From Methanofollis ethanolicus (lineage in GTDB: Archaea; Halobacteriota; Methanomicrobia; Methanomicrobiales; Methanofollaceae): a stretch of DNA of 64,000 bases. The notes beneath the pieces were generated by a model. The model was not told where the DNA came from. It made no database searches and saw only the letters and a program-made list of their open reading frames with translations. Where the stretch lies: positions 2,581,470 through 2,645,469 of the forward strand of contig NZ_BCNW01000001.1 of assembly GCF_001571385.1 (NCBI RefSeq). The letters are read 5' to 3'. Positions 31,859-39,154 of this stretch are shown piece after piece; positions within the stretch are counted from its first letter, which is position 1; each line of letters opens with the position of its first letter. A program made the position numbers and the translations under genes.

Positions 31859-32503
31859 CTCTATCACCATACATCCTGGAAGTGGGACAAAGCCCGTAAA
31901 GGGGGCTGGGATGCGGTCACACTGGTCACATGGACAGCGTGCCAGATGATATGTGAGGATATACCAGATAATGGTGCCTCTCAAGAAGAGGGATACGATC
32001 AGGTGCCGGCAGAGGCAACGACCTGTGTGATCCCTCAGTCCCGTAGGGGTGAGGACAAACAAATCGTCGGGATCGAAACGATCGCCGTCGAAGATGAGTA
32101 TTGTATCAGGCGATGAGAGGAATGGCACAGGTAAACACTTCAGGACGGTGGTTGATGATCAGCAGTTACCAGGACTGACTGCGGCGCACAGGAAAGAAGT
32201 ACCTCTAGCAGTGGGGATACAGTGGTTGCACAGGGAAAAACAAATGGCACGGATCATCCAACCAATCACAAAGACTGGTTCAAGAGGATTTTTCCCCAGG
32301 ATAAAGCCACCAAGAATGACCCGGACAACAACAAAGATAAGATCCCATGCCAACACCGGCACTTTGGTATTCGCTCAGGTCGACGAATTGTTCTCAGGGT
32401 TGCAATGATGAGGCTATGCCAGGATCATATTGAGGACAATACGAGAAAATTCTCCGGGAATACAAAAACAACAAACAGACATTCGTTCGCGGCATAGAAG
32501 AAA
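31859..32503. other. spacer of about 645 bases without a supportable gene
   Basis: The spacer separates ppcA from the downstream 5S gene. It holds the ppcA promoter region (minus-strand GGTATATCC near 31955). Several short frames exist; one on the minus strand (32159-32362) encodes a hydrophobic stretch, VLAWDLIFVVVRVILGGF, that might be a decayed membrane protein gene, but no start site, length or family supports it. Confidence 0.4.
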
Positions 32504-32624
32504 TATAGCAGCGAATTACTTTTCCCAAGTGCTCGCGCAACTCAGTACACGGTAATACGTGAACGGGCTTAACTGCCGGGTTCGGAAAGAGTCCGGGTGT
32601 TTCCCCGCTGCTATGGCCGCTATA
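32504..32624 (-). rRNA. rrf: 5S ribosomal RNA, distal copy
   Basis: The 121-base gene (minus strand) is nearly the same as the 5S copy 236 bases upstream, with several differences in helices (for example gaacgggc against gagtgggc). Its ends TATAGCGGCC and GCTGCTATA pair as helix I. It lies after the rRNA operon and has its own TATA box, so it is an extra 5S gene. Confidence 0.9.
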
Positions 32625-33057: not shown

Positions 33058-33098
33058 AGCCGTGTCCTCTATAATGTAACACATTATAGTGTTTAAAG

Positions 33099-36239: not shown

Positions 36240-37833
<1,594 letters not shown>

Positions 37834-37974: not shown

Positions 37975-38673
37975 GGATATAAACCTTTGTGGCCAACCTT
38001 CTGAACCAGAGAGACCGATTCAGAGTCACTGTGCGAGGTAACAATCTACGACTTCAGAGCATATAATACTTTGTACCCCGTGAAGAGTTGCAAAGATCTT
38101 ACCTCAGAAGACTGAATCCCAGTGGCTGATTCCGGACTTGCCGGGGTCATCAGCACCAGTCATCGTGCTCTACTATGTTGCACCGTGGAGGATATAAACC
38201 TTCGTAGCCCCCTTTGAGGGGCGAAAGGCAGACATCCCGGCACACCACATTAGAGTGTGAGATAACACCATTGGAGTTCGGAGAATATAAACCTTCGCAG
38301 TCACCCCGAAGGGCGTTAAAGGAAGATCCACATCCCCGTTACCTCAGTCCCATGAGAGTCGATTCCGATCTCGTCGGATTCATCGACCCCGGTCATCTTG
38401 CGAGGTAACAACATTGTATCCCACAGGATATAAACCTTCGCAGTCACCCCGAAGGGCGTTAAAGGAAGATCCACATCCCGGAGCACCAATCCCCACAGAT
38501 TGCAGAGCAACCCATGAGAGTTACCTTGTGTGATAACAAACTTGGTCTTTGACGTATATATACCCTTTCTTTCCCGGAAGACCCGAGAAATAGATATATC
38601 CACAGGAGCATTCACCCCTGTGAGTCGTCTCAGACACGACCCCAATATGTTGTCGCCTCTTCCATATAAACCT
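37975..38673 (-). promoter_or_regulatory. array of tandem rRNA operon promoters with repeated upstream elements
   Basis: On the minus strand, TATA-like tracts occur at about 37975-37987, 38190-38202, 38283-38295 and 38425-38437 (each GGTTTATAT), at 38551-38563 (GGGTATATATACG), and perhaps at 38663-38673. About 25 bases after several lies a shared TTGTTACC/TTGTTATC motif, a likely start site. Two units (38285-38336 and 38427-38478) are identical over 52 bases and carry CCTTCG-N9-CGAAGG directly before the TATA. The array spans about 700 bases upstream of 16S. Confidence 0.75.
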
Positions 38674-39154
38674 AATCTGTATCCAGGCGCTCCTGGCCAC
38701 CCGCGAGATCAGCGGTCTTGAAGTAGCGTGAGAATTCCGGCGTCGTCTGGAGGACATAACTCCTCCCCTCGCGCTGGCGCGCCACCAGATTCCGCCCCAC
38801 CAGCTCGTCCACATGGGCGTACGAGCCGCTCCCCCGGATCTCCACCAGATCACTCTGCAGAATCGGCTGCCTATAGGCGACCACCGAAAGGGTGCGCAGC
38901 ACCGCACGCGAGATCTCCGGGCGGACCAGAGGATAGACCAGATCGCTGAACTCCTCTTTCAGGACCATAAACACACTCTCCCCTGAGTCCAGTACCTCAA
39001 GAGGAGATGCGCGCTCCAGAAGGCGCCCGGAAAGTTCCGCCGCAAGCGCAGGCACATCCTCGTGCCGCACACCAAGCATACGCTCCAGATCCCGATACTC
39101 CACCGGCGCGTCGGCCACAAAAAGAACCGCCTCAAGCATCGCTACTCTGTCCAT
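38672..39154 (-). CDS. scpB: segregation and condensation protein B
   Basis: The 160-residue protein has two winged-helix domains and the segments LEAVLFVADAPV and VLRTLSVVAYRQPILQSDLVEIRG, typical of ScpB. With ScpA it joins the SMC heads in the condensin complex. It overlaps scpA by 23 bases and its stop codon borders the outermost rRNA promoter candidate. Confidence 0.9.
   Translation of the reverse strand: MDRVAMLEAVLFVADAPVEYRDLERMLGVRHEDVPALAAELSGRLLERASPLEVLDSGESVFMVLKEEFSDLVYPLVRPEISRAVLRTLSVVAYRQPILQSDLVEIRGSGSYAHVDELVGRNLVARQREGRSYVLQTTPEFSRYFKTADLAGGQERLDTD

Follow-up and report, generated by a model that had tools for sequence, protein, structure and literature searches.

Little is known of how archaea that have one or two rRNA operons adjust their rRNA synthesis, and the locus studied here raises this question in a simple form. 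The genome of this methane-producing archaeon, a Methanofollis (2.71 Mb), has one 16S gene, in agreement with the first-pass annotation, which had spoken of the only rRNA operon, and about 900 bp separate this gene from scpB upstream of it. What is contained in such a long interval, and what could a series of TATA tracts do in front of a single operon? We analysed a stretch of 64 kb around the locus (the window) and, with the region upstream of the operon as query, collected rRNA leaders from 12 genomes of Methanofollis and from further families of the order; counts for whole genomes were obtained by searching with patterns, families and models. The seven-unit array that we describe is real, conserved and more structured than had been seen at first, and the idea of a regulator bound at a palindrome is unsupported.

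Promoter-like units between scpB and the 16S gene

The interval carries seven units on the minus strand, each composed of a BRE, a TATA box and an initiator (P1 to P7, counted from scpB; Table 1). The first-pass annotation had proposed five or six tandem promoters, and while the tandem minus-strand units are indeed there, their number had been set too low. Minus-strand TTTATAT occurs six times in the window, with five of the occurrences inside the leader region, and TTTATAT or TATATATA is found there six times, where 2000 dinucleotide shuffles gave 0.04 on average and never more than 2. When scored with a PWM, the seven units reach 27-47 bits and the best match elsewhere in the window 14.4, but the PWM was trained on these same seven units of this genome, so that their scores are high by construction and independent support has to come from relatives. 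The sequence that had been noticed after several TATA boxes proved to be TTGTTAYC, which follows four of the seven at a fixed distance and is exact at P2, P3 and P6, whereas P4 has it with a mismatch, as GTGTTATC. It had also been remarked that the outermost TATA touches the scpB stop codon, and the P1 box does begin one base beyond it.

Table 1. Features of the rRNA leader and its surroundings, in window positions. PWM scores are those of training sites and high by construction.
Feature	Position	Strand	Remarks
rRNA operon		minus	order 16S, tRNA-Ala, 23S, tRNA-Cys, 5S
16S rRNA gene	36293..37759	(-)	sole 16S in genome
scpB	38672-39154		directly upstream of rRNA leader; name as in the first-pass annotation
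P1 BRE	38671-38678	(-)	overlaps scpB stop codon at 38672-38674
P1 TATA box	38664..38670	(-)	PWM 27.1 bits; predicted start ~38645
Hairpin after P1	38601..38622	(-)	CACAGGGG...CTCCTGTG; seen by eye and folding
P2 TATA box	38556..38562	(-)	PWM 38.6 bits; initiator TTGTTATC; predicted start ~38537
Hairpin after P2	38491..38519	(-)	11-bp stem; double-sided changes at 7/11 pairs; 97.3% of cells paired
Exact 52-bp repeat, P3 copy	38428..38479	(-)	element + BRE + TATA
Element before P3	38435..38469	(-)	CTTCCTTTAAC + inner hairpin with UUCG loop + GACTGCGAAGG (BRE)
P3 TATA box	38428..38434	(-)	PWM 46.6 bits; initiator TTGTTACC; predicted start ~38409
Stem-loop after P3	38354..38391	(-)	double-sided changes at 5/13 pairs
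Exact 52-bp repeat, P4 copy	38285..38336	(-)	
Element before P4	38291..38327	(-)	same as element before P3
P4 TATA box	38285..38291	(-)	PWM 46.8 bits; predicted start ~38266
P5 TATA box	38192..38198	(-)	PWM 42.6 bits; predicted start ~38173
Stem-loop after P5	38121..38158	(-)	structure as after P3; double-sided changes at 5/12 pairs
P6 TATA box	38061..38067	(-)	PWM 42.4 bits; initiator TTGTTACC; predicted start ~38042
Hairpin after P6	38001..38025	(-)	by eye and folding; mean z -2.4 (7 leaders), antisense -1.9
P7 TATA box	37977..37983	(-)	PWM 43.9 bits; predicted start ~37958
Hairpin after P7	37914..37938	(-)	double-sided changes at 3/8 pairs; 91.3% of cells paired
16S-proximal leader stem-loop	37834..37883	(-)	model R2 69.2 bits (training sequence)

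In every fully scored Methanofollis leader the PWM from this genome alone finds six or seven units, and these keep their positions: there are seven in this genome and in five others, six in G001, and six (P2-P7) at every operon of G002 and G004, two genomes that have two operons each. Antisense matches in the same leaders number 0-1. The second operon of G002 and G004 has a different upstream sequence, yet P2-P7 are retained there. P1 scores above threshold in G009 and G011 (27-29 bits), is weak (15-16 bits) in one clade, that of G006, G003 and G005, and was not found by the PWM in another, at the operons of G002 and G004. Between Methanofollis clades the leaders share about 70% identity, and BRE, TATA and initiator are kept at six or seven positions; in the P2 unit, AAGGGTATATAT is invariant across 10 aligned leaders. 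The tandem-promoter claim, which by the first-pass annotation would fall if close relatives had not kept the repeated unit, was not refuted, the unit being conserved across the genus. With at least two units that point the same way ahead of 16S, and with their conservation between species, the locus probably belongs among the archaeal tandem rRNA promoter arrays. No description of such arrays in Methanomicrobiales was found in the open literature, a body of work that leaves most subscription journals outside.

In other Methanomicrobiales the same PWM finds mostly 2-4 units, and it finds none at loci L025, L028, L031 and L032 of the order; because the PWM is genus-specific, unit counts outside Methanofollis are lower bounds, and they do not settle whether promoter number acts as a gain control. 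That suggestion had been made for a single operon, and it is weakened within the genus by the two Methanofollis genomes with two operons, each of which is preceded by six units. On the same observation, promoter number as a simple compensation for operon number is unsupported within the genus.

The best PWM match outside the array lies at 33097 (-), between the 23S and tRNA-Cys genes, and its place just before tRNA-Cys and 5S suggests a candidate separate promoter within the rRNA operon. Downstream of the operon's own 5S gene there is a second 5S rRNA gene (32503-32624, minus strand), and the spacer before it is AT-rich, with a TATA-like CTTATAT.

The repeated element before P3 and P4

The exact repeat of 52 bases reported earlier is real, although its second copy, given as 38427-38478, was off by one base, and it sits inside an 81-nt repeat at 88%. 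Both copies contain CCTTCG-N9-CGAAGG, as had been seen, and this palindrome had been interpreted as the binding site of an activator or repressor. When we compared relatives, however, we found that only one of its arms is kept. The right arm, CGAAGG, is the BRE and is retained; the left arm reads CCTCCG, CCTCTG or CTTAT. We required both half-sites of a palindromic operator to be conserved, and the candidate was rejected on that ground. In this species CCTTCG forms the loop of a small hairpin, and since CGAAGG is the BRE, the apparent dyad is, on a reading of the aligned leaders, a hairpin loop and a BRE that happen to be complementary. When as many as two mismatches are allowed, the motif is not specific: the genome then yields 533 forward matches, and the control 129.

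The conserved arrangement consists of CTTYCTTTAAC, a variable hairpin, CTGCGAAGR and the TATA box, with lengths of 34, 36, 38 or 40 nt for the whole element. Its inner inverted repeat varies by compensatory and G-U changes, as RNA hairpins do, around a loop that is UUCG or UCCG in most species, and in the inner stem of the P3 element 100% of cells are paired, with compensatory changes. It could nevertheless be asked whether the element, from CTTYCTTTAAC to CGAAGG, is the DNA site of an rRNA-specific activator or repressor, which would be compatible with the promoter array. The blocks CTTYCTTTAAC and CTGCGAAGR hardly vary, both adjoin BRE and TATA, and the two occurrences of CTTYCTTTAAC in the window are both in this leader; in a pattern search of the 12 Methanofollis genomes, the two blocks were paired at rRNA leaders only, in 10 of the 12. 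A protein may bind CTTYCTTTAAC, the invariant flanking blocks or the BRE side. However, the stretch between the blocks changes in length and in sequence and keeps its pairing, G-U pairs included, and this, together with the unconserved left arm of the proposed palindrome, leaves the regulator site as a possible but rather unlikely explanation.

A hairpin that comes after CTTYCTTTAAC is also what would be expected of a boxA/boxB-like antitermination signal, with leader-like stem-loops loading factors onto RNA polymerase. We take CTTTAAC to match the core of the bacterial boxA and count this in favour of antitermination, and the element would be transcribed if P2 fires. The boxA match is short, however, and the element is present at P3 and P4 only, so that transcripts from P5-P7 would lack it. 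NusB (PF01029), which we found in 10 control bacteria, is absent from the genome, and bacterial-type boxA antitermination is unlikely for that reason; a literature search on archaeal boxA returned nothing useful. We regard an antitermination role of the element as highly improbable.

The P3 and P4 units evolve in concert. Their mean identity is 0.89 within genomes, compared with 0.81-0.83 between orthologues, and their elements show parallel changes in both copies, which suggests that the two have probably been homogenised by gene conversion. At one locus (L038, G007:C11), a single CTTCCTTTAAC-hairpin-GACTGCGAAGG copy is retained and the TATA box that followed it is lost.

RNA structure in the spacers and next to 16S

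Hairpins were found in most of the spacers that follow the promoters (Table 1). Single-sequence folding gave modest scores (-0.85 for P5 and -1.04 for P2), and as it is weak for several units, we relied on covariation. In an alignment of ten leaders, taken from genomes that are related to one another, 97.7% of the cells in spacer helices form standard pairs, against 32-54% when one strand is slid, and shuffles give 22.7 +/- 3.5 double-sided changes where the leaders have 62. Covarying helices follow P2, P3, P5 and P7, and others precede P3 and P4. At P1, where the alignment is poor, relatives have a stem-loop with a different stem sequence, and downstream of P4 no clear hairpin was found by folding (mean z -0.18). 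No Rfam family matched in the leader spacer.

Are these helices a property of RNA? Cells with G-U number 111 and cells with A-C number 5, a comparison biased by the folding program that chose the structure, since it allows and favours G-U, and the consensus energy is -94 kcal/mol for the sense strand and -60 kcal/mol for the antisense strand. Two of the five alignment windows fold in antisense with a departure from randomness that roughly equals or exceeds that in sense. From the G-U excess and the more stable sense consensus, the spacers are most likely transcribed, as the rRNA-sense strand, and the long rRNA leaders of Methanofollis are suggested to be functional RNA rather than mere spacing between promoters.

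Another stem-loop lies close to the 16S gene, where it adjoins the leader-trailer processing helix. One covariance model, R1, was trained on the stem-loops that follow P3 and P5, and a second, R2, on the 16S-proximal copies alone. R1 gives 49 bits after P3 and 47.1 bits after P5, both of which are training sequences, and it also matches the 16S-proximal stem-loop in other families, at L032 with E=9e-11 and at L025, L028, L031 and L023 with E from 1.6e-4 to 0.02. Matching between the upstream and the proximal copies is reciprocal, although it is weak from R2 to the upstream copies: taken singly these have E from 0.014 to 8 (9.1 bits and E=7.7 for the stem-loop after P3), and all R2 matches across the DNA searched lie at rRNA leaders, with none in the window beyond this leader. 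Across the genus, R1 exceeds 28 bits twice per operon and nowhere else, the exceptions being G007 with one match and the fragmented G008 with none. Of 54 good genomes from the order, 48 contain between one and five matches to R2. The stem-loops after P3 and P5 thus resemble the 16S-proximal one as judged by the models, a likeness that could have come from shared ancestry or from convergence. The proximal stem-loop, beside the processing helix, recalls the archaeal 16S leader with its bulge-helix-bulge processing stem (PMC8339473), but in Methanofollis similar stem-loops appear again after P5 and P3, some 360-630 nt before the 16S gene.

Possible function and comparison with other rRNA promoters

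The explanation that we favour, and consider probable, is a tandem array of seven promoters with a long, transcribed and structured 5' leader that runs into one pre-rRNA operon. The units would be archaeal promoters of the TBP/TFB type, all pointing into this operon, and most of them would consist of a promoter (BRE, TATA and initiator) followed by a hairpin early in the transcript, P4 being the one without. We infer that the promoters fire from the conservation of the units and from the RNA-level selection on the spacers. Stacked initiation would then give more transcription of the operon, and the hairpins could give the long leaders structure, protect them or assist in their processing, and would keep the upstream transcripts compatible with 16S excision. 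A unit might go further and be a promoter joined to an RNA device, with the early leader stem-loop acting on RNA polymerase or on 30S assembly, which we think distinctly doubtful; if it were true, the array would multiply not only promoters but also an RNA signal that acts in cis.

Haloarchaea are already known to have tandem rRNA promoters, and those of Halobacterium cutirubrum are reportedly the subject of work by Dennis in 1985. In H. cutirubrum there are five, two of them hardly detectable, and growth-rate-dependent use has been reported for one promoter, while Hfx. volcanii has three rRNA start sites (PMC4983044). Like the Methanofollis array, the haloarchaeal ones stack several promoters before 16S, all into one operon; they differ in their promoter sequences, and Methanofollis has seven units. 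The two hardly detectable promoters (PMC4983044) also speak for a more modest reading of our locus, in which one or two TATA boxes work and the remainder are leftovers of leader duplication. Duplication is indeed shown by the repeats and by their concerted evolution, and one copy in G007 stands without its TATA. However, BRE, TATA and initiator would hardly be expected at six or seven positions of leftovers in clades as divergent as these, and covarying RNA follows P2, P3, P5 and P7, so that a leader with few working promoters is unlikely in our view.

What is new in the seven-promoter array is that promoter units and leader-like RNA stem-loops occur together, and such built-in hairpins appear to be undescribed. 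The stem-loops resembling the 16S-proximal one inside an array are shown here for Methanofollis leaders. Eukaryotic rDNA has spacer promoters, where duplicated units ahead of the gene promoter increase output; the arrangement is similar and serves here as an analogy, as the polymerase system is different. The array offers concrete parts for the study of rRNA synthesis: the starts predicted here, the strengths of the promoters, and a leader stem-loop that is conserved and lacks an Rfam family.

Among the loci sampled, leaders are more stable than shuffles in Methanofollis, in family f4 and at the probably haloarchaeal loci, and three loci of family f8 are not. Four loci with a TTCCGG-type 16S start (L065, L066, L069 and L070), which are probably haloarchaea by a label taken from that start sequence only, carry direct repeats 43-70 nt long ahead of 16S, and hairpin-like sequence occurs in some of these.
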